This document shows positions 27,784 to 64,000 of a stretch of 64,000 nt of DNA, one piece after another (positions within the stretch are counted from its first letter, which is position 1; every line of letters starts with the position of its first letter). The position numbers were made by a program, and so were the translations under genes. The DNA comes from Henckelia pumila (taxonomy: Eukaryota > Streptophyta > Magnoliopsida > Lamiales > Gesneriaceae), in NCBI RefSeq assembly GCF_033568475.1, contig NC_133122.1, positions 151,852,861 to 151,916,860 on the forward strand. Reading direction: 5' to 3'. The notes under the pieces are model-generated. The model saw nothing but the letters and a program-made list of their open reading frames with translations, was not told where the DNA came from and searched no databases.

Positions 27784-29602
27784 TCAAGAATTTCTTGGAA
27801 CCTGAAAATAAATCGAAAGTTAATTAATCCAGATTATTAAAGTATTGTAGTACATGTGGTCACAGAGCTGCCAAGTATAAAATCCACCACATTCTTGGGG
27901 AGATTCTATATATGTTATTCTTATATTTGGTGATATTATATGTACACGAAAAATTACACGTTGAGTTATACGTTGCACTTGAAATTATATAATTATTCTT
28001 AATGTATTTTGAAAAGAGTTTTTTTTAAATTATAAAGTCAAGAGATAATTGTGTAATTTCATATTTAATGTGTAACCCAATGTATGTAACTCAATGTGTA
28101 TATGTACCATTTTCCTATAAGATTTCACCGATGTATATGCATGAGATTTTCAGATAATTATCTCATTTGAAAACAAAAAATATTTATGATCCTCATATAT
28201 ATATATATGTTTTTTGATTTTATTGAGTGAGATAATCACCCCTCAAAGTTCAATAAAAGCTAGCATGCAATTTGGAGATAGATTGATCATAGATACCATT
28301 TCCCATTTTATATATGTTTATGTTTGGTGCGTGTGAATATCACATGAATTAATACTAGCGAACACAATTTTCGAGGCAAAATTATTTTAATTTAAAAAAA
28401 AAATTAATAAATCATGAATATAATTCACCGAAAGAAAACATATTAAAAAAAAAAAAATTGCACGAATTGTGTATATTAATGAATGAATGGATATATTACC
28501 AGAAAATAGCTTTCACCATGCTGCAAGCTGTGCACCAGAAATCCATAGTCATTGACTTGCAATGGCATCCCTGACGAATGAAATAACACAAAATCTCCCC
28601 CAAACATCGCCTTAATGTCAAAAGCCCCCCTGCTCACATTTGTTGCCACCCCGTTTATAAATACCGTAATCACTCCTGAAATGTAATTAATTCGGAATAT
28701 ATTTAATTCAACAAAAAAAAAAACCCCGCCCCAAAAAAATCTAGAAAATCATATAAATGTATAATATATGTAAATTTATTGAACTAAAAAAAATACTCAA
28801 ACAAGTCATTTATATATATATTTCAAATTGCATTTGCAATTCCGGCGTGCATATAATTGAAAGAAAGCTAGCTAGGGTTTTCATGGGATGAAAAGTTTTG
28901 ATCTTCATCTTAATAATAATAATGACATGCATGAGATTTAATTTAATGTATAATTTGATCACAATTTCACTGCGAGCTAGATCGATGGTTGTGACAAGAA
29001 TTTTGAAAAAGAAACATATATTTAATTTATAGGGTTTGGGACATAATTAAGAAATATATAAATATAAATGTACCTGCAGAATAATATTGGTATTGCAGAT
29101 TTGAAGGATGGGAGGAGGTTTGGTCCAGTAGTGGTTGAAGTTGAAGGGCAGAAGAATAGGAGAAAAAATCATGAAAATTAATAATATTAGATGAGGAAGG
29201 GGCCTCGTCATGCACCAAGCTGCTGCAAGAGCTTGTCATATTGTCGACACAAAGATTAGAATTTGGTGCCACGGCGGCGGCTCTGTTGGGCTCTCCTTGG
29301 GCGAGGCTTGCCAGCTGGATTTGGCGGTGCCTACGGCGCAAGCGGGAGCGGCGATTCTGGAACCAGTAGAAGACATTGGCGTCGCCTACGGAGCCGAACT
29401 TCTCCAGCATCTTCCGGATCCTCACCGTCTCGTTCTTGGGTGGATTCACCATCCCGCTGTTGAATATGGATTCCAGGATCAAGATTTGTTCCGGCTTCGG
29501 CGTCCACCGCGACCGAACCGGCTCCTCATGTCTCTCATCCACGCCGACACTCGGAGGACGTGCGGCGGCAGTGCCTTGGGCTTGCGCTTGACTATAGTAC
29601 AT
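27784..29602 (-). CDS. WOX11/12-like: WUSCHEL-related homeobox transcription factor, WOX11/WOX12 type
   Basis: Predicted exons on the minus strand are 29602-29074, 28675-28500 and 27801-27784, giving 240 residues. The WUS-type homeodomain spans about residues 29-93, with [17 protein letters not shown] and [12 protein letters not shown]; the larger WOX loop is present and the recognition helix is intact. Exon 2 carries the C-terminal block [10 protein letters not shown]...LQHGESYFL, which is characteristic of the WOX8/9/11/12 clade; with EPVRSRW before the homeodomain, this points to WOX11/12. Exon 3 is only 18 nt and adds VPRNS and the stop; as I recall, related proteins end similarly. If intron 2 is retained, the protein ends VIYPFIH instead. 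In Arabidopsis and rice, WOX11/12 specify root founder cells in adventitious rooting. Bases 28676-29073 are intron 1. Confidence 0.9.
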
Positions 29603-29733
29603 GATGGCATATATATATATATATATATTTAGTTAAAAGTACTTAAGAGGGTGGAAATGCAAGAAAACGACGACTGCTTGGGATCGGAGTAATATTCCAT
29701 ATTCAAGGGTTTAATTCTTGGCTAGCTAGAGTA

Positions 29734-35299: not shown

Positions 35300-35705
35300 G
35301 ACATATATATCTATCAGCCCTATTGATGATTAATTACAAGGTATGAGGTGTTTTTTAATGGGTAGAATTGGTGGAGTAGGTTAGCTTTTGGATAATGATC
35401 TCAGACAAATTTGTCGCACATGATTTACTTAGTGAGTTTAGTTAGCTAATGTGGTTTACAAGTTACTACATTAGCCCGAAATCTTATCCAATATAATTGA
35501 AGAGCAGTGTTATCTTAAAAAAAAATACTTTAAGAGTGTCAAAATCGCTATTCGTCGTTGTTAAGATGCAGAGAACGATCGACGCATGATATTTAGATTA
35601 TTATTATATGATTAAAAAGATATTTTTGTAATATGCAAATGCGTCAACTATTTTTTAAAAAAAATTATGGAAGAGACCTTCGATCACCAATAGGGGTGGT
35701 TTGGT

Positions 35706-35808
35706 GGGGTTTTTTTATTTTTAGTGTAAATTAAATAATAAATTTCAAAAATAATGTAAAATTAAAAAAATTTTACAAATACCGTAAAACTCCAAATCTG
35801 ACAGCGGA
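35706..35808 (+). repeat. Left terminal inverted repeat of the MULE
   Basis: It begins GGGGTTTTTTTATTTTTAG and runs to CTGACAGCGGA. It matches the complement of 42637-42739 with a handful of differences. The promoter of the PMD gene is expected in or next to it. Confidence 0.92.
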
Positions 35809-35843
35809 TATTCAGTACACGTTGGCACCATCCGCCAACATTT

Positions 35844-35995
35844 GGAGCGGATGCTGCGTCGTGGCGTGGGGTTGTGCCACGCACGCAGCATCCGCTGCCA
35901 CTTGTAGCGGACGCTGCCACATTGGCAGCATCCGCTACAAGTGGCAGCGGATGCTGCGTGCGTGGCACAACCCCACGCCACGCAGCATCCGCTCC
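35844..35995. repeat. GC-rich perfect-stem palindrome inside the left MULE end
   Basis: Arms of about 73 bp that begin GGAGCGGATGCTGCGT and close around GCCACATTGGC, with a 2-base asymmetry. The unit GCAGCATCCGCT recurs several times. It stands out sharply from the surrounding AT-rich DNA. Confidence 0.9.
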
Positions 35996-36056
35996 ATTAT
36001 CATGCTCAATTATTCATTTGTTTCTGCAGAAATCATCGGCTTTTCTCTCCTTATTC

Positions 36057-36774
36057 TCTCCTTCAATTTTTTGTTTCTTTAACATTAGATTTCTCCAGAA
36101 TCGTTCCTCCAATTACAAATCCGAAAGTAGTTTCGGAATCCTTACAACGAGAGGTTTTTTTTTACACCAATTTTTTGAGTTTTTTTCGCCGTATTGAAAA
36201 CATCGTCCGACCACAGGCGGAGCATTTTCACATCTTTTATCACCGCCTATCGTTGTTCAAACTAGCAAGAAGATATTTTGGTTGGTTGGAGCTCTATTTC
36301 AAAATTAAGGTAAATTCGAGATTATGATTTTTTAATTTGGGTGTTTTGGTTTAATTGAGTTACTATAATTGAAATATGTTTAATTGTTGGTCGCAGGTAC
36401 TAAAAAAACCATTTGAAGGTATGAATTATTTTTCAGAATTTTTTTAAGCATTATTTTGATTTTTTGAGTTTATTTTAATAATCTGTTTTAGTATATATTT
36501 CAAATTTCTTATTTTTTTAATTAAATATATTATATTAATATAATAAAAATTAAATGTATTAATAATAAAAATAGTTATGTTACGTTAAGTGTTGTTATTA
36601 TTATTATTTTAATCTTATAATATATAAATATAGAATTATATATATATATATTAAAATACTAAAAATTATATATATAAACTTTATTATTGTGGTTGTTATT
36701 ATATTAGATATATATGCATGTGGTGATATTATTGTATTATTGATATACTATATAATATTACGTATGTATGTATG

Positions 36775-36807
<33 letters not shown>

Positions 36808-37069
36808 TATATAATATATGTACGTATATATGTATATAATATATGTACGTATATATATATATATATATATTATTTATATATATATATATATAATTTATTG
36901 TTATCGTTATTATATTAAAAATGTGCAATATATAGACATATATTGTTATATGCATATATTAAAATTTATTATATTTTATTTTATTTTATTTTTATGTTTT
37001 GTAAACCATGTAATTTTATAATATGTGTTTATTGGTTTGCATTATATAATTGTTAGTATATTTGTCAGG
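36057..37069 (+). promoter_or_regulatory. Non-coding leader of the PMD gene with two predicted introns
   Basis: Leader exon 1 ends at 36309 (AAG|GTAAAT), intron 1 spans 36310-36396 (87 bp), a 22-nt mini-exon spans 36397-36418, and intron 2 runs to the acceptor TTGTCAG at 37068, one base before the ATG. Intron 2 is full of TA and ATGT microsatellites (about 36610-36900). Exon 1 end, intron 1 and mini-exon match the leaders in both CACTA elements of this window in order, length and sequence, and TCTCCTTCAATTTTTTGTTT at 36057 matches 48031 as well. Splicing is predicted, not observed. Confidence 0.6.
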
Positions 37070-39187
37070 ATGACAACAAATCGAGGACCAATAGATTCCA
37101 GTGTGCTATATTTACAAGCCACACATATGTCGTCAGAAGTTTCCACAATAACAATTGATGACATAGTTCGAGTCAAACGATCCGATAATTTGATTTGGCA
37201 GTTATTTAATGAGCATGGTCTGCACAGTCGTGTGATTGCATATTTAAATAATATGGGGTTTTATGGTGTTTTGTTGTGTGGATCTCGGCAATATGATAAT
37301 CATTTAATTACTGCTTTGGTTGAACGATGGCGACGTGAAACACATACCTTTCATTTTAGATGTGGTGAAGCAACCATCACTTTACAGGATATTTCCATTA
37401 TTTGGGGTCTACCTATTGATGGTGAGCCTGTAATTGGTATAGATGTTTCACGCAAAGTTGAAGAGTGGCAGCATATATGTTTGGATTTATTGGGATTTAC
37501 GCCACTGACGTCGCATTTCAAAGGTGGTCACTTATCGATGACCGCTTTATATGAGCATTGCATGGCTGCACATATCGATGATAATAGTCCAGAAATAGAT
37601 GTCGTAAAATATACCCGTTGTGTAGCATTAATGATTATTGGAGGAATCATGGTTCCAGATTATCAAGGAGGATCTGTTAAATTGATTTTTTTGCAACTAC
37701 TTCGGGATATTGAACGCATCAGATCTTATAGTTGGGGAAGTGCAGTTCTAGCATTCCTATATCGTGAGTTATGCAATGCAACACGGATAAGAAAAGCTAT
37801 AATATCCGGGCCTCTATTTATCCTACAGGTATAAATTTTTAAGTGCATCTAATATCACATTATAATAATTTATAATTTAATTTATTACTGATGGCAGGTA
37901 TGGGCATGGAGCAGGATTACATTTGTTAATCCTGATATAAATGGATTATCTCTGACTGTGCCTCAAAATGAATTCGAGGAAGATATTCCATATGCTCCTT
38001 ATGGTGCACGGTAATATTTGAAAAATATTAGCTTTTTTATAAATTACAAATTCATTTTGTAATAATTTTAATAATCTTTTTTTATTGTAGGTGGTCAAAT
38101 GTGTTTAGTTACACTCATTCACCAACGCACGCTGTTAGAATTATAAGGGATTGCTTCGATCGTATGACTAATGCCGAGGTGTGTTATTGGATTATTGAAA
38201 TTTTTCAGCAATTATATTAATTTCTATTTATTAATTAAAAATGATTTTATTATTATTATTATGCAGTTTAATTGGATAGTTTACAACAAGAAAGATGTTG
38301 ATGTTAAAGCGATCATTAGTACATACGATAATAGAATCTGGAGATGTGTTTGTCCTCTGATTTGTTTTGATATTGTGGAGATGCATCGTCCTAATCGGGT
38401 CTTGAGGCAGTTCAAAATGCGACAATCTATTCCTAGGCCTGCACTTGACAACGATAACCTACACAATGTTAATAGAACAGGTCATCGCAACACTGATTGG
38501 AGAGAGTATCATAAAGATGCAATTATTCTTTGGAATGGAAAATTGAGTAATGTTGCCCGAGGAGAACGTTACAGAAGATCTAGCGAAGTCGATGATGATT
38601 ACTTTCCATGGTATGATCGCATTACTGTACGATTTATATCGCCTGCAGTAACTGGGCTTGGTTTTAGGCCATATCAACCGAATTTAGATATTGGCAGACA
38701 CAGTAATATTCCACAAAATTTTAGTGTGTCATCCTCTGATTCGCAGCAGTCATCATCAGGGTTTGTTCCTCCTCGTCCATCTGGTGAGTTCTACAACGCG
38801 GGTCCATCTGGTGGGTTCTACAACGCGGGTCCATCTGGTGGGTTCGACAACGCAGGGCCATCTAGTGGGTTGTACAATACCGGACCATTCGGTGGATTTT
38901 ACGGTGCAGGACCATCTGGTTCATATGTTGATGCCGGTTATCATACTCCATTTTGTGAAAATATCCAAAGTTTTACAGATCTGCTTAATACTGGTCAACG
39001 CAATATTCTGGCTCCTGAAAGAAACGTTCCATCACCTGTAATATTCCCTAGTTATTCAGATGAGCAACAAGAGAGGAGTGAAGAAATTGTTGATGCTCCT
39101 GTTGTGCGTAGAGGACAACGTAGACGTAGACCACCTGCTTGTGGTACCGGTGGTCATTTGTATAACTGCAATTGTCATGAACAATAA
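37070..39187 (+). CDS. Plant mobile domain (PMD, MAIN/MAIL-like) protein carried by the MULE
   Basis: Predicted exons are 37070-37828, 37898-38010, 38091-38178 and 38267-39187, encoding 626 residues with every joint in frame. Residues about 20-445 carry the PMD (PF10536, once called aminotransferase-like) with its best known segment ALVERWRRETHTFHFRCGEA...TLQDISIIWGLPIDG; exon 2 supplies WAWSRI and YAPYGAR. A low-complexity segment (about residues 488-550) contains eight or so repeats of the form PSGGFYNAG. The protein ends with an Arg-rich stretch (RRGQRRRRPP) and CGTGGHLYNCNCHEQ, a possible nuclear localisation and Cys/His tail. Host PMD proteins (MAIN, MAIL1) act in nuclear silencing and genome stability, and PMD genes are known inside plant transposons. 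I chose the ATG at 37070 because an upstream one at 37025 lies in the leader intron. A role in helping transposition or countering silencing is inference. Confidence 0.88.
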
Positions 39188-39478
39188 TAATATTTTTTTT
39201 GTGTTATAGTAATTGATAATTAGTTATGCATGTGATTTTTTTTCCTTTCCGTATGATTTTTTTTTATTACACCACAATTATTTTAAATACTTTATTAAGT
39301 TGATTAAAAAAAATATGAAGAAAAATGCTATTAGTGTAATAGATCAATGCATTTAACCAATATCAAATACATATCTTATTCAATGCATACATTATATGAC
39401 ACAATTATAAAAACGCATATGCTACCAACAAACATTTATTTGTTATACATTTTTCGTCAAGCAATCAATTGTCCACGT

Positions 39479-42161
39479 TCATCTGATACTCCTGAAAAAA
39501 AAACATATACAAATTAAAATATATTACAATACATATTTTTAGGAACAAATTAAATTTTCAAAGTTTATACCTGTTAGTTCTTCGTTGTTGTCTCTCTCTC
39601 GCTATCGGCATGTCCATCTCGTTTCTTAGTCGAGTCGTTGTATCCCTACCTGCTCTTCTTCTTTCACGTCTAACTGGGTTGTGTTGCAACTCAAAGGTAG
39701 GACGATCCCAATATCTTTCATCTGCAAGAGGTTCAAATCTTCCTTCATACGTTGCGAGGTACTCCGATATATTGTACCATGACTGCACAAGTGTCGTGGG
39801 ATCTAACGAGTGCCATTTAGCGGTGCAAATAGCATGAGAACACGGGATGCCGAAAATTGTCCATTTACCACATGAACAATCTGTTGTTGATATTCTCACC
39901 ACTTGCATGTGTTGGCCGCGACTTGGCCTTCCTCCGGTTGCAACCTGAGCAGTTTGTGATCGTACATCATATTTAACAACACGATGTTCACTAGATTTCT
40001 TTGCCCATTCCTCATACTTTCGCCGTGCATAATCCGACCACAATTGATTTTCTTGAACCATACGTTGACCTTTTGTCACACGTTCAATGAAGTATTGGAC
40101 ACATCTCAGAAGGGTCAAGTGTACTATTGCAGATATAGGCAGTCTACGAGCTCCCTTTAACACACTGTTTAAGCACTCGGACATGTTGGTCGTCATCACT
40201 CCACGACGCCAACCTCCGTCATGGGCCATACTCCATTTTTCCTTTGATATTCCATCCAAATATCTGTGTGCCAAAATATTTTTGTTCTTAATTGCCTCCA
40301 TTGTTGCATCAAATTTACAAATTTGATGTTGACTACCTGCTTCCCAGCACAAATCTTTCAAATGCACATCTTTGAACCTGGAATTAAAATTTGAGCACAC
40401 GTGCCGCAAACAAAAACGATGCACACCTTGTGGAGGTTTGAAATAGGGTAGATCTTCAACGGCTCGCACGATTCCCTTGTGCCTATCAGATATTAGACAC
40501 ACACCATTTTCGCCACATACAACATGTCGTCCAACATTTTCCAAAAACCACTTCCAGGAATCAGACGTTTCTTCATCGACAATTGCAAAAGCCAATGGTA
40601 GAACTTGATTGTTAGCATCGAGAGTGACAGCGATCAACATTTTGTGTTTGTACTTTGTGTACAAATGTGTACCATCGACACTAATGATTTTTCGACAGTG
40701 TTGAAATCCATTAGTACACGGCTTGAATGCCCAAAAACAATAGTTCAATGTTTTTATTTCTTCATTGTTTCTGAGATGCTTCCAGTCGACAATTGTTCCA
40801 ATATTGTATTTGCAAAGAGCACGCATATATTTTGGCAGTAATTGAACAGAGCTCTCCCAAGTTCCATAAACAATTTCCACTGCACGTTTCAGACTCCGCC
40901 ACGCCTTCGTATACGAGATTTGATATCCATATTTATCTTTCACACTCTCTATTATATATTTAATCTCGTACGAAGGATCACATCGTACAATTCCCAATAG
41001 TGTATGTGCAACCATATCACTATTCAAGTTGTGATGATCTATGCCGACGTTGGTTGATATACATGTATGAGGCCCACCATATCTGGTTATTTTCCAATAA
41101 CCTGTTTTCTCCTTGAAAGATGCGCGAAGACCCCAACGACATCTGACGGTGGAAGAATCATTTTTGCATTGAATTTTCCACAAAATGCGTGTGCTCTCAA
41201 CAACAAGATATTCACGCCTAGAAACTCTGACCGAATAATCCTTCACAGATGCAATCAGATCTTTTTTATCCTTGAAAACCATGTTTACACATAGTTCTCC
41301 TCTCTCCTCATTATAGTATCTTGTCCGCATGTCATGAGGTACGCCAATAGAATCAGGAATCTCTTCTCCAAAATATGTATTAAAAAAAGATGGCATATCA
41401 GAAGTGGTAGAAAAGAAAGGAACATCTTGCCTCTGTAATTTCTGACGAGGTGGTGGACGAGATGATGTTCCCTCATCAGTATTTGCATGGATATTCACAT
41501 GTACATCATCATTCACATCTTCAACATCGTCATCATCTTCTTCCTCAGACTCCCCGTATGACATCTCTGGCTCTGTATCGCTTATCTGGACATCTTCGTT
41601 TTCACTCCTAGGATCATCAACACGTGGCACAAAGTTTTGAATTTCTGAATTCCAATTTGCTTCACCATAATTTTGTTCCCAAATACGTGTACTTTCCGGC
41701 CAACTTGCAGGATCAGGTTCTGATGTGCCGGCGATATATTGATCCCACGATCCACTTTCAGGATAAAGATACATGTTGTCCATTCCTTCGGTGACGTGTA
41801 AAATATCCGATTCTTGGTCGACATGACCAACGTGATGGTCAATTTGGTTTGCTTCCACGTACAAATGCAATATACGTATATTGGGAGATTGCATCATAAA
41901 CTCTAAAGCGTTGTCATCGACAAGATTGACTTGAATTTCATGCCAAGATGAATTTTCCATAAAAGAATATTTCGTTGACAATTTGAGGGTAAAAGTAGTT
42001 GGATCAATCCTCAATATTTGATGCACAGCTTCAACCAACTCGGACAAAGTAATGGTACGTAGAACTCGCATCGGTCTAGTATAAGGAATACTATACACAA
42101 TCGATCCACTATCCACAATAATATGACCACCAAAATATAAAAATATATCAATGTTTTCCAT
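39479..42161 (-). CDS. MURA-type transposase of the MULE
   Basis: The main frame runs from the ATG at 42161 to a stop at 39558 (867 residues). A GT donor at 39570 and an AG acceptor at 39492 would instead remove the last few codons and end SIR at 39479, as small 3' introns do in MuDR; both endings are possible. Residues 1-105 form an N-terminal domain of the type often found before plant MURA proteins; 150-240 are acidic; about 275-370 are the MuDR DNA-binding domain with conserved Cys and His (GPHTC). The catalytic MULE domain follows, with D496 (SVDGTH), D559 (LISDRHKGI) and E662 (TTNMSECLNSVLK), and C584-x-x-H587. A SWIM zinc finger (C762, C764, C774, H776) comes next, and the C terminus is Arg-rich. 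All expected catalytic and zinc residues are present. It should bind the inverted repeats and cut the element out. Confidence 0.95.
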
Positions 42162-42440
42162 TCTCGATATATTTTTTTGAAATAAAAATGAAAAACGGAT
42201 AAAAGGAAAGAGAAAATTTTAAAGAGTTTAATATTTGTATGAGTGATATCCGAATAACATTTGTGAACATATATATAGTAATACAATTACGCGTAGAATT
42301 ATTCTTTACGCGTTAAATTAATTCTTTACGCGTTATAATTAATATTTAAAAATTTATTACGCGTTGAATACGCGTTATATAATATATTTAAAAATTTATT
42401 ACGCGTTAAATACGCGTTTTATTTAATTAACGGGCCAACT

Positions 42441-42620
42441 ACGCAGTAGCGTCTGAGTTGGCAGTAGCGTCCTCCGCCACGGGGCGCGGACGCTGCTGCC
42501 AACTAGGCAGCGTCCGCGCCCTGTGGCGGAGGACGCTGCCAACTAGGCAGCATCCTCTGCCACGAGGCGCGGACGCTGCCAAATAGGCAGCGTCCGCGCC
42601 CCGTGGCGGAGGACGATGCT
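42441..42620. repeat. GC-rich palindrome cluster inside the right MULE end
   Basis: Several overlapping inverted repeats built from GGCAGCGTCCGCGCC and GTGGCGGAGGACGCTGCC. It mirrors the GC-rich palindrome near the left end and shares the core GCAGC(G/A)TCCGC. Immediately left (42278-42435) are direct repeats of TTACGCGTT. Confidence 0.88.
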
Positions 42621-42636
42621 TACGTGGGAATGAAAG

Positions 42637-42739
42637 TCCGCTGTCAGATTTGGAGTTTTACAGTATTTGTAAATTTTTTTTAATTTTACATTATTTTTGA
42701 AATTTATTATTTAATTTACACTAAAAATAAAAAAAACCC
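42637..42739 (-). repeat. Right terminal inverted repeat of the MULE
   Basis: The complement begins GGGTTTTTTTTATTTTTAG and ends CTGACAGCGGA, matching 35706-35808. The MURA promoter is expected between here and 42161; 42162-42440 is AT-rich leader and promoter DNA. Confidence 0.92.
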
Positions 42740-42749
42740 GTGGTTTGGT

Positions 42750-43130
42750 ACGGTATACCGCGATATTCAATGAATACCGCGTACCGTATCGAAAATTGTG
42801 ATACTCGTACCGAAAATATCGGTATATCAAAAATCCATATCGATACCGTACCAAATTTCGATATACCGAAATTCTGTACGGTATCAGTATGATACCGTGT
42901 ATATTGATTTTTTTAAACTATTTTTTTTAAAAAAAAATATCGGTATACGCTGTATCATACCGATACCGTGTATACCGACTTTTTTTGGATATATCGAAAT
43001 ATCGAAAATTTGAAAATCCTATACTAATGCCAATACTTATACCGTACCAAAATTTTTGTTATACCAAAATTTTCGATATATACAATTTTTTTTTAATACT
43101 ATATAAACGATATGACGACATTTCGATATT
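42750..43130. repeat. Older repeat rich in GGTATACCG words, host of the MULE insertion
   Basis: Many short words such as GGTATACCG, ATACCGTACC and TTTCGATAT in both orientations. With 35688-35705 (CCAATAGGGGTGGTTTGGT) it forms the interrupted sequence ...GGTTTGGTACGGTATACCG. The type is common in plant genomes and may be hAT-related, but no right terminus or duplication was found. Confidence 0.5.
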
Positions 43131-52252: not shown

Positions 52253-54407
52253 GGAATTGTTGGCTTATGCACTAAGAATCGATATACACAACTATTGTAT
52301 GCATAGCCAGTAAATATGCAGTCAACCGTTTTAGGCCTAATTTTTATTATTTTTGGCTTTGGTGCTTCTAATTTAGCCAAACACCCCCATACTTTAAGGT
52401 AACCCATTCCACATTTCATATGGAGTACCATCTTTTCCTTTGTGTGGTATCTTGTTTAGAATATGATTTGCAAAAAAGTATCGTTTCTCCCCACATATTT
52501 TGATATAAGCCAGAATTTAGTAACAAAGCGTACATCATTTCTTTTAAATTATGATTTTTGCGTTCAGCAACACCATTGGATTGAGGTGAGTATGGGGCTG
52601 TAGTTTGATGAATTATGCCAGACGTTGAACAAAATTCTTCAAATGGAGCAACATATTCTCCACATCGATCACTTCGAATCATCTTGATCTTTGAATTTTG
52701 TTGATTTTCAATCTCATTCTTATATTTCTTGAAAACTTCGATTGCTTCATCTTTGCTTTTCAATCAATATACATAACTGAATCTTGTGCAGTCATCAATG
52801 AATGTTATAAATTACTTGTTTCCTCCTCGAGTTTGCATATATTTTAAATTGCATACATCAGTGTGTATTAACTCAAGTGGTGTAGTACTTCTAGTCACGG
52901 AATGGAATGGTGCTTTAATCATTTTTGCTTCAACACAAATCTCACACTTATGTTGTGAATTTCTTTTAAATGCCGGTATTACATTTAAATTTGCAAGTAT
53001 TTTCAAGGTGTTGAAGTTAAAGTGTCCTAATCTTTCTTGCAAAATATTAGAACTTTCAATCAAGTAAGCAGAATTGATAACTTTATTCTTCGCATCTTGA
53101 CGGATAACATTCATTACATTTAATTTAAACAGACCACTGTCTTGGTATTTTTTTCCTACGAAGATGACATATTTTGTTAACACAAACTTGTCTGATTCAA
53201 AAACCATTTTAAATCGTGCCTTGCTCAGAAGAGAACCAAAAACTAAGTTCTGACGAATGTCTGCATATGCAGTACATTTTTTAGCGTTGTCCCTTTTCCT
53301 GAGGTCATTTTCAGCACCACATTCCCCACTCCAATGACTTTTGATGTAGCAAAGTTTCCCATAAACAATTTTCTATCACCAAAAATGGTGTAGGTGGAAA
53401 ATATATCTCTTGCTGCACAAATGTGGCTCGTAGAACCAGTATCGATCCACCATTCTCTTGGATCATCCACCAAGTTGGTCTAAAAAATAACAGTTCTTAG
53501 ATCAATATCTAAAGGTACATACCTCTCCTCTACAATATTTTCTTGCCTTGGTTTCTTATTTATGTTTTCTTTCTTGGGAAGATGACAATCTCTTGCCATA
53601 TCGTTCGGTTTGCCATAGTTGTAGTAATTACCTTGGAACTTCTTTGCTTTTCCCTTTTTCTTTCCATCATATCGGCGATTTCTTTTGTTATTGGATTCTG
53701 CCAGATTTGCTTTGGCTTCGGTTTCTATCACCTTTTTGTATGACTTGGCCTCGATGTTTCTGTTATCTTCCTCAATTTGGAGTCTTAGAATGAGGTCTTC
53801 AAGTTTCAACTCCTTGCGTTTGTGCTTGAGATATTTCTTGAAGTCCTTCCACTGCGGTGGCAACTTCTCAATGATTGATGCGACTTGGAATGGTTCATTT
53901 ACTTCCATCCCTTCGGCCAGTAAATCATGCAGAATGATCTGTATTTCCTGCACTTGACTCATTACTGTTTTGAGTCAACCATTTTGATTTCCAGAAACGT
54001 AACTTACCAACCAAAGACTTTTTGATGCCAACGTCTTCTATTTTGTATTTTTTTTCTAAGGAATCCCATAATTTCTTGTCTGTCCTGACAGAAAAATAGA
54101 CACTATAAAGTGTGTCATCAAAGCCATTCAAGATGTAGTTTTGACACAGGAAATCATTGTGGTTCCATGCATCAACCGCAGTCATTCTTTGGGTGTCAGA
54201 ATCGCCTTTAATGACGACGGGGGATCCTCCTTGAGAAATCTGGATAGACTCTCTGTAGTAAGATAGAAATACATCTTCTGTTGCCAACATTTGAAGTCGG
54301 CACAAGAAAACTTGGATGACTTTTCTCCATGAGCGGGGGTAGTAGCGAGCGGAGTGAATGAAATAGTAGACATGTTCAGAATCAGAAAACAGATTTCTTC
54401 TTGCGTT
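52253..54407 (-). mobile_element. Ty1/copia fossil, 5' internal part (Gag to integrase)
   Basis: On the minus strand it shows, in order, Gag of the UBN2 type (about 54374-53480, with a CCHC-like knuckle), protease (WWIDTGSTSHIC near 53450), the pre-integrase motif (HKCEICVEAK near 52945) and the integrase core ([16 protein letters not shown] near 52600). Reverse transcriptase and RNase H are missing: the element stops exactly where the gypsy LTR ends at 52252. It is broken, with several breaks. Confidence 0.88.
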
Positions 54408-55267
54408 TGTTAGACAAAGTATTCCGAATTCTGAACAAAAACAGCAACAATGATCAAGTTGAGGCAAGAGAATCTCTCTGTCCGCAAGACAAAATTGCCC
54501 GTTATTAGTGCTAAGCTTTGGCGGCAATCGTCTCTAAGGTACAACGAGTACGAACGAGATATATCAGCAAAAAAAATATCTCAAACTTCAGCGAACAAAA
54601 TATGGCAGAATATTTTAAGTGAGAAAACACAAGAAATCAGAAAATTCGATGCTTCAATCTGTAGACATGGGGATGTATTTATAGACAGCTGATAGTTGCG
54701 ACCAAGAGACACACCGCATCAAGTTGAGAAGATGTGACTCATCGAGACGAACAGACGCAACTCATTGGTCGACAGAGCAGTTGACATAAACCAGTCGAGA
54801 GGGCAGTCGACTTTCATCGGTCGAGATGAGTGGTCGGTCGATATGGGCAGTCGATCGAGTCCAATCGATCGAGGTGAAAGAGCAGTCGAGAAGCATACCC
54901 ATCGTTCGTGGAGATAAACTCAAACTAAATAGTCAAGAAGCACACACAGGTTGAGGTGGGCAGTCGAGATACAAAATTTAATAAATAATACTAAATATTA
55001 TTTTAATTAAATTTGTCCAAAAAGGATATACGGTCATAGGACCCCACCCCACCCCACCACGCCGAGTTAGGCGGGCGCGCGTGTGTATTTGTTCATCGGC
55101 TAATGTCTTGCCTCTTTACAAAACTTCTGGTGCCCTAAGGGCCAAATCCCATAATCTAAAGTTGGACTAGTTAAGGAAAACAACACATTGAAATTTTTCC
55201 AATGTGGGACAAACTCTTTTCCCATTTATTAATTATTTCTCATTTATGTCATTCACAATTTCCAACA
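54408..55267 (-). repeat. Probable 5' LTR of the copia fossil
   Basis: On the minus strand it begins TGTTGGAAATTGTGAATGAC, a common plant copia LTR start. The other boundary is taken at TGTTAGAC (54408) from the TG...CA rule, but no standard primer-binding site follows, so that end is uncertain. About ten copies of the word CAGTCGA/TCGACTG fill 54720-54970, probably the U3 enhancer region. Confidence 0.6.
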
Positions 55268-62895: not shown

Positions 62896-64000
62896 ATCTC
62901 CACCTTGATTCTTTCAGGTTGAATGCTGCTATCCTTCCTAGCTTTCTTGGCTAATTTCCAATCACCGCATTGACTAAGTCCAAACATTTCTTGAACTTAG
63001 CATACGACAATGACTTTATCATAACATCTGCAGGGTTTTCTTCTGATGCTATCTTCACGATGATTACATCTCCTTTTTCAATTATATCTCTGACAAAATG
63101 CATCTTCACATCTATGTGTTTCGATCGTTCATGATAGACTTGGTGTTTCGTCAAGTGTATTGCACTTTGATTGTCACAGTGTACGACAACTTGATCTTGT
63201 TTCACAACAAGCTCCGCTATCATCCCTTTTAACCAAAATCCTTTCTTCATGGCCTCAGTAACAGCTATGAATTCTGCCTCAGTGGTAGAAAGGGCAACCA
63301 CCGACTGTAAATTTGACTTCCAGGTGATCGTTGTGCCATAAAAAGTGAACACATAACCATTCAATGAATTTCTCGTGTCTAAGTTCCCAGCAAAATCTGA
63401 ATCCACATATCCAACTACCGGATCAATCCCATCTTGCTGTTTTTCAAACTTTAACCCCAACCCAATTGTGTTTATGAGATATCGGAGAATCCATTTCAGA
63501 GCTTCCCAATGATATGTACCCGGATTAGCCATAAATCTTGACACAACACTGATTGTTTATGTCAGATCAGGCCTACTACACACCATTCCATATATGAGAC
63601 TCCCCACTCCACTAGCATATGAAATACCAGCCATCTTCATCTTGTCTTTCTCACTTTCAGGTGACTGATTCGCAGATAGATTCAAATGCTGTCCCAGAGG
63701 GGTCAAGATAGATTTTGCTTGATTCATGTTATACCTTAGAACAACTTTATTCAAGTAATTCTTGTGATTTAGATGAATCTCCTACCTTTTCCTATTTCTC
63801 ACTATGTCCATGCCCAGTATTCTCTTCGCTTCTCCCAAATCTTTCATCTCAAACTCTGAGTTGAGCTGATGTTTCAAGGATGATATTTCTTTCCTACTTT
63901 TACTTTCAATGAATATATCATCAACGTAAATCAGTAGATACAAGATAACCTGCCCTTCATCCTTCTTCAGATAGACACATCTGTTATATTGGCTTCTCAC
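62896..64000 (-). mobile_element. Ty1/copia internal region, 3' part (RT and RNase H), fossil
   Basis: On the minus strand, the reverse transcriptase block with YVDDI (near 63925) comes first, followed by the region with the SRPDL-type motif (near 63560), and RNase H with YVDSDFAG, STTEAEF and HCDNQSAIHL (63420-63150). It runs off the right edge, so the rest of the element lies outside. It has a few breaks in the visible part. The LTR sequence differs from that of the copia at 52253-55267, so these are two families. Confidence 0.9.

Follow-up and report, generated by a model that had tools for sequence, protein, structure and literature searches.

Results

The element and its two genes

The stretch analyzed here, hereafter the window, comprises 64,000 nucleotides of contig NC_133122.1 of Henckelia pumila (positions 151,852,861 to 151,916,860) and contains a 7,034-bp Mutator-like element (MULE) at 35706-42739, both boundaries of which are exact. 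The element carries two genes, one for a MURA transposase and one for a protein with a plant mobile domain (PMD). It is flanked by a perfect 10-bp target site duplication (TSD) of the sequence GTGGTTTGGT (35696-35705 on the left, 42740-42749 on the right), which scored 10.0 in the TSD search, compared with a 99.9% quantile of 6.8 in a control of 2,000 pairs of random positions. The terminal inverted repeats (TIRs), at 35706-35814 on the plus and 42631-42739 on the minus strand, pair without gaps over 109 nt, of which 104 are identical. A first-pass annotation of this DNA had reported the same duplication, correctly, together with inverted repeats of 103 bp, which are in fact somewhat longer.

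The transposase gene occupies the minus strand as a single-exon open frame (39558-42161, start at 42161, stop codon at 39558-39560) of 867 amino acids, identified by its reading frame and by Pfam matches to MULE (PF10551, E 8.1e-18, 65.1 bits against a cut-off of 27.6) and SWIM (PF04434, E 3.2e-06). Candidate catalytic residues D496, D559 and E662 are present, as is a SWIM pattern C-x-C...C-x-H at 762-776; the roles of these residues and of the pattern are those that we presume. This agrees with the first-pass annotation, which had found all catalytic and zinc-binding residues in place and no visible damage in either gene; both coding sequences are indeed intact. As the transposase is open and full-length, the element is not a Pack-MULE, which would lack a transposase and carry host gene fragments instead. 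A PDB sequence search with the PMD and MURA proteins returned no related solved structure up to E 1.

The PMD gene lies on the plus strand (37070-39187) and encodes 626 amino acids in four coding exons (37070-37828, 37898-38010, 38091-38178 and, stop codon included, 38267-39187), separated by GT..AG introns. The domain, to which exon 1 contributes, matches PF10536 over positions 1-346 of 347 (E 3.5e-81, 273.5 bits, cut-off 34.9). The fourth exon encodes a repetitive linker and an R-rich tail with CGTGGH...CNC. The predicted four-exon structure, already proposed in the first-pass annotation, is supported by comparison: the same three introns with GT..AG borders were found, by hand splicing, in eight further PMD genes of the genome (loci L029, L040, L031, L030, L032, L041, L035 and L039), and splice sites are GT..AG at all three introns in 12 of 13 close copies, the thirteenth, L020, being possibly misaligned. 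The two genes are convergent, as had been noted, with 370 bases between their stop codons (39188-39557) instead of the approximately 290 given before. Upstream of the PMD gene, the segment 36420-37069 is very AT-rich, contains microsatellites, and ends with CAG just ahead of the PMD start (G, then ATG). Since L041 has TAG where the window has that CAG, an intron in the 5' untranslated region is possible.

Association of the PMD gene with MURA

We searched the 885-Mb source genome; only the best candidates were scored, and all match counts are lower bounds. The search for MURA was run with MURA alone and was therefore blind to the PMD gene. Among the closest MURA loci (the best 52 of 1,554 candidates), 48 have a PMD exon-1 match within 8 kb, in convergent orientation in all 48 cases; this count drew on 96 of the 152 PMD exon-1 matches. 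A diverged sister type, represented by L031 and L039, has a MURA that is 58% identical to that of the window and shows the same convergent layout. In a list of 23 MURA loci, 20 belong to the L031 type and three are odd ones (L036, L037 and L038). A PMD match is listed for 16 of the 20, again convergent in all 16, and for none of the three. When the two MURA types are taken together, a PMD match is listed within 9 kb for 86 of 106 loci, and within 8 kb for 85. By comparison, approximately 0.3% would be expected by chance (158 PMD places in 885 Mb), and in a control set of the 150 best MULE-domain matches, none of them less than 3 kb from the 106 MURA loci, a PMD match was near only one. Second pieces of split matches were left out of both the 106 MURA and the 158 PMD places. 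Because the PMD and MURA lists are incomplete, the co-occurrence figures are lower bounds as well.

The first-pass annotation had reasoned that the PMD gene would be a passenger if other copies lacked it, and the outcome is the opposite. As its second gene, the PMD gene belongs to the element itself and accompanies MURA in both of the diverged types examined.

Copies and recent movement

A search with the left TIR gave matches for 40 of 40 candidates scored (the best 40 of 217), with some copies represented by both of their ends. Twenty regions were fetched; they represent 19 copies, L018 and L025 being opposite ends of the same one. The PMD gene is full-length in 13 of these copies, partial within the fetched stretch in four (L010, L011, L013 and L027) and absent from two, namely L028, where the match is limited to 308 bp at the left end, and L021, a 2.7-kb deletion derivative. 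The L018/L025 copy (G000:C2:178166265-178182171) spans 15.9 kb between perfect 9-bp duplications; in the half that should hold MURA, other DNA has for the most part displaced or split the original sequence. Thirteen fetched regions and the window were examined gene by gene; the other seven regions, with a partial or no PMD gene or with one end only, were left out. Both genes are open in five of these 14 copies, the window, L009, L014, L019 and L022, so that the further copies with the same inverted repeats and both genes that the first-pass annotation had asked for do exist. Relative to all 20 copies the figure is again five, the remaining six fetched copies having no complete PMD gene in the stretch fetched.

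TSDs accompany all 13 insertions tested (the window included). They are 9-11 bp long, within the 8-11 bp characteristic of MULEs, all different, and perfect in 12 cases; the one with a mismatch, at L015, scored 5.7, which in the random control falls above the 99% point but short of the 99.9% point. Six substitutions and small indels separate L009 from the window copy (99.63% identity over 7,046 columns). Because of this near-identity and of the TSDs at all insertions tested, we conclude that the family has moved recently. On G000:C4, at approximately 225.86-225.93 and 226.13-226.19 Mb, paired PMD and TIR matches (for example L010 and L011) recur at a nearly constant offset of approximately 261 kb; these pairs reflect either a segmental duplication or a duplication in the assembly.

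Selection on the two genes

Ratios of nonsynonymous to synonymous divergence (dN/dS) were calculated by the NG86 method, skipping codons that hold a stop (one in the MURA gene of L031) and using the PMD gene of L029 as the 431 codons ahead of its first break. Between the window and L040, dN/dS is 0.21 for PMD (bootstrap 0.16-0.27) and 0.11 for MURA; between the window and L029, 0.17 and 0.11; between L029 and L040, 0.30 and 0.20; and between L031 and L039, 0.24 (bootstrap 0.17-0.33) and 0.26. Saturation affects the comparisons between L031 and the window type. Between the window and L040, constraint is stronger on the PMD domain (0.17) than on the sequence that follows it (0.35). Full-length open PMD genes are also present in the diverged L040 and L039. 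Selection thus keeps the PMD gene functional between subfamilies, and this, together with its convergent presence at 48 of 52 MURA loci, is why we regard it as part of the element.

Relatives and origin of the PMD gene

Three PMD genes elsewhere in the genome, L030, L032 and L041, stand alone. Over exon 1 they are 59-63% identical to the element PMD, compared with 54% for the PMD of the L031-type MULEs. No MURA match was found within the 6.9-7.0 kb fetched at L030 and L032; L041 was covered over 2.4 kb only. L030 (G000:C2:86417600-86424500) has four introns, is 61% identical over 248 amino acids of exon 1, and by eye adjoins a DnaJ-like frame. An extra intron near the C-terminus is shared by L031, L039 and the three stand-alone genes; the window type is without it. 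A C-terminal CGTxGH behind a basic stretch occurs in the PMDs of both MULE types and is missing from L030, L032, L041 and the host-type L035. The latter, which is presumably MAIL2-like, has three intron positions in common with the element PMD. At L033 (G000:C1:101378901-101386700) there are two adjacent PMD genes whose domain, unlike that of the element's PMD, is open throughout without an intron, and which we take to be of the PMD-B type.

The PMD trees are weakly supported, and the set of sequences compared contains no PMD-A sequence. One tree was rebuilt without L033 and L034, which have long branches; L042 (damaged) and L037 (broken) were kept outside the trees. At the deepest split with measurable synonymous divergence (dS), the two genes of the element agree, with PMD and MURA values of 0.95 and 0.99 between the window and L040, and of 0.97 and 0.94 between the window and L029. 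A single ancient capture of the PMD gene would be consistent with the common tail and with these deep dS values, and both genes may have been inherited together from that one capture.

Subterminal arrays and flanks

Inward of each TIR lies a GC-rich, partly palindromic array of the 8-mer GCRTCCKC, counted on either strand: six sites at 35847-35992 on the left, where the palindrome extends over 35855-35987, and seven at 42467-42597 on the right. All 13 sites in the element are within 450 bp of an end; three more occur in the remainder of the 64-kb window. Confinement to the ends holds for 86 of 86 sites over eight copies, and for 10 of 11 in the diverged L029. The arrays could be binding targets of the transposase or of the PMD protein. 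In the L031 type, no TIRs were recognised in two 1.3-kb flanks.

The right flank (42740-42960) contains many CGGTATACCG-like inverted repeats, by eye perhaps another small transposon that adjoins the insertion or lies beneath it. Elsewhere in the window, a 201-amino-acid frame at 29027-29632 has what appears by eye to be a WUSCHEL-type homeodomain and possibly belongs to a host gene, and frames at 448-1878, 52812-54533 and 62951-63556 resemble, also by eye, pieces of retrotransposon gag and copia-type polyprotein.

Discussion

Together, our data make it probable that the element is a two-gene Mutator-like DNA transposon of the autonomous type, whose second gene, a PMD gene of its own, most likely influences the state in which the element is expressed. 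MURA, judging by its MULE domain, its SWIM finger and the duplications, would bind the ends, then cut and paste the element and leave duplications of 9-11 bp. The PMD protein may act on the expression state in such a way that the element stays transcribed, a proposal that we make tentatively and with slightly less than even confidence. It would do so by imitating its host relatives, MAIN and MAIL1 for example, or competing with them, or alternatively by acting at the element's own subterminal arrays. MAIN and MAIL1 are described as necessary for transposon silencing and for the expression of a set of genes, together with the phosphatase PP7L (PMC5418596, PMC7156037, PMC9899485). Because these host proteins act there, the simplest reading is that the element PMD interferes with the silencing pathway, or borrows it, to remain expressed; it would then act in the nucleus, with a partner and on a target DNA, and have an anti-silencing role. 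A more specific version, which we consider improbable, is that the element PMD is a dedicated, sequence-specific anti-silencing factor, derived from a protein of the host silencing pathway, that recognises the subterminal arrays in parallel to VANC of Arabidopsis VANDAL elements, with motifs specific to each family and changing together with the protein.

The main rival to an action on the expression state is that the PMD protein assists MURA in transposition or integration, in a role like that of maize MURB, and is no anti-silencing factor at all. We regard this as possible, if doubtful. Co-occurrence and selection would suit any dedicated helper, and the R-rich tail, which contains Cys and His, would suit binding to DNA or to the element ends, as would the subterminal arrays; moreover, insertion in maize is reported to depend crucially on MURB (PMC9168764). 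Against a helper role, what has been described for host PMD proteins concerns silencing and gene expression, and several active MULEs are listed with a transposase gene alone (PMC9168764).

A second alternative concerns the direction of gene flow. L030, L032 and L041 may be former MULE genes that were taken over by the host, in which case the flow would have been, at least in part, from element to host. Their greater similarity to the element PMD than that of the L031-type MULE PMD speaks for this, as does the best tree, which places them between the two MULE types. However, the tree support is weak (55-63%), monophyly of the MULE-borne PMDs is not rejected (p 0.144), the three genes are without the MULE tail, and no MURA match was seen in the stretches fetched around L030 and L032, so that we consider such a takeover rather unlikely. 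It is quite unlikely, in our view, that the family is an inactive relic whose open frames are an accident of youth: at least one gene is broken in nine of the 14 copies whose genes were inspected one by one, but five copies have both genes open, L009 is only six substitutions and small indels away over 7 kb, and 12 of 13 TSDs are perfect. Finally, MULEs do capture host sequences and the introns suggest uptake of a genomic gene instead of a cDNA, but a chance passenger of the kind carried by Pack-MULEs is contradicted by the co-occurrence and selection data, namely the convergent PMD gene at 48 of the 52 closest MURA loci, dN/dS values of 0.17-0.30 between subfamilies, and the full-length open PMD genes of L040 and L039.

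Several observations weigh against the proposal that the PMD gene is an inherited part of the element acting on its expression state. No listed PMD match lies within 9 kb of 20 of the 106 MURA loci, and two of three odd MURA loci, L036 and L038, have no PMD match in the sequence fetched; the third, L037, has a damaged PMD gene even though none was listed. At shallow splits the dS values of PMD and MURA disagree (0.28 and 0.16 between L029 and L040, 0.17 and 0.26 between L031 and L039). The MULE-borne PMDs do not form one clade in the PMD tree, yet their monophyly is not rejected either (approximately unbiased test, p 0.215; rebuilt tree, 0.144), and neither is a single clade of the stand-alone genes (p 0.194, rebuilt tree). 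Because the tree neither recovers nor rejects a MULE-borne clade, several captures, exchange between PMD genes or re-use by the host are possible. Within the young family, changes in PMD confined to single copies are near neutral (1.03 with kappa 1, 1.38 with kappa 4), and shared changes are few, leaning to constraint without reaching significance (0.39, p = 0.058; with kappa 4, 0.52, p = 0.15). The corresponding MURA values are 0.66 (p = 0.019; with kappa 4, 0.91, p = 0.33) for single-copy changes, which are thus neutral or under weak constraint, and 0.28 (p = 0.0024; with kappa 4, 0.39, p = 0.018) for shared changes, the latter leaning to constraint. The purifying selection on the PMD gene that the first-pass annotation had proposed to look for is therefore shown between subfamilies (0.17-0.30) and not among recent copies. 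The 8-mer GCRTCCKC was chosen only after the arrays had been seen, and none occurs in L031 or its two 1.3-kb flanks. Lastly, the DOWN motif CATGCAGTTT, which is linked to host PMD proteins in Arabidopsis (MORC1 promoter), is not in the element; the closest site has one mismatch and coincides with a PMD splice acceptor.

The family provides a test system for the question, raised in 2017, of whether transposon-borne PMD genes fight host silencing. Its assets are several near-identical open copies, recent insertions, candidate target motifs, a sister type at some distance, and broken sister copies that provide controls by nature.

Comparison with known systems

Maize MuDR also has convergent genes and long TIRs. 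Like the window element it combines a transposase gene with a second gene, which is mudrB in maize and a PMD gene here. The first-pass annotation had placed the PMD gene in the mudrB position as a dedicated helper or anti-silencing factor, roles that it may have. That it belongs to the element is supported by the 48 of 52 loci and by selection; the novelty that this implied is not, as the layout is already in print (PMC6446971).

PMD genes of the PMD-C type have been reported as captured by MULEs in grasses and Amborella, in the form of transposase fusions (Ikeda et al., 2017; PMC5418596), whereas the window element has a separate, convergent PMD gene with its own introns. The same authors speculated that captured PMDs serve anti-silencing, an idea that is also found in PMC8616336. 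Among open-licence full texts, we found no paper reporting a selection test on MULE-borne PMD genes or a functional assay of them within the element. With the host proteins MAIN, MAIL1 and MAIL2 the element PMD has the domain in common; it differs from the host-type L035 and from L030, L032 and L041 in being element-borne and in its C-terminal tail.

Arabidopsis VANDALs with VANC are a described case of an additional MULE gene that acts on the silencing of its own element, which has short motifs in noncoding parts (PMC13317346). In a system of that type the extra protein brings about loss of methylation at its own family, and the element PMD would be a putative counterpart. VANDALs are described as having no TIRs or short degenerate ones, in contrast to the 109-nt TIRs of the window element.

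A close match is to the MUDR group as described by Dupeyron et al. (2019; PMC6446971), who list the PMD as antisense in most elements of that group; the convergent layout is therefore common. The same survey notes an often antisense PMD for MUDRAVI2 and an antisense one for a Solanaceae group; of the VANDAL-group members, half have a PMD and/or a domain of unknown function. For MUDR (group 50) and MUDRAVI2 (group 49), respectively, it gives TIRs of 30-320 and 80-290 bp, TSDs of 9-10 and 9 bp, one or two open reading frames, and a SWIM finger in most or many members. The window element matches MUDR group 50 in SWIM finger, TIR length, TSD length and antisense PMD, and shows no difference from MUDR/MUDRAVI2 in the features listed, the comparison being one of described features. 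The element is thus of a known kind, a MULE with an antisense PMD. New here are the evidence from selection and co-occurrence, which goes beyond the presence of a PMD in a survey table to show that the gene is maintained by selection, the tail confined to the MULE-borne PMDs examined, and the subterminal arrays as possible targets.

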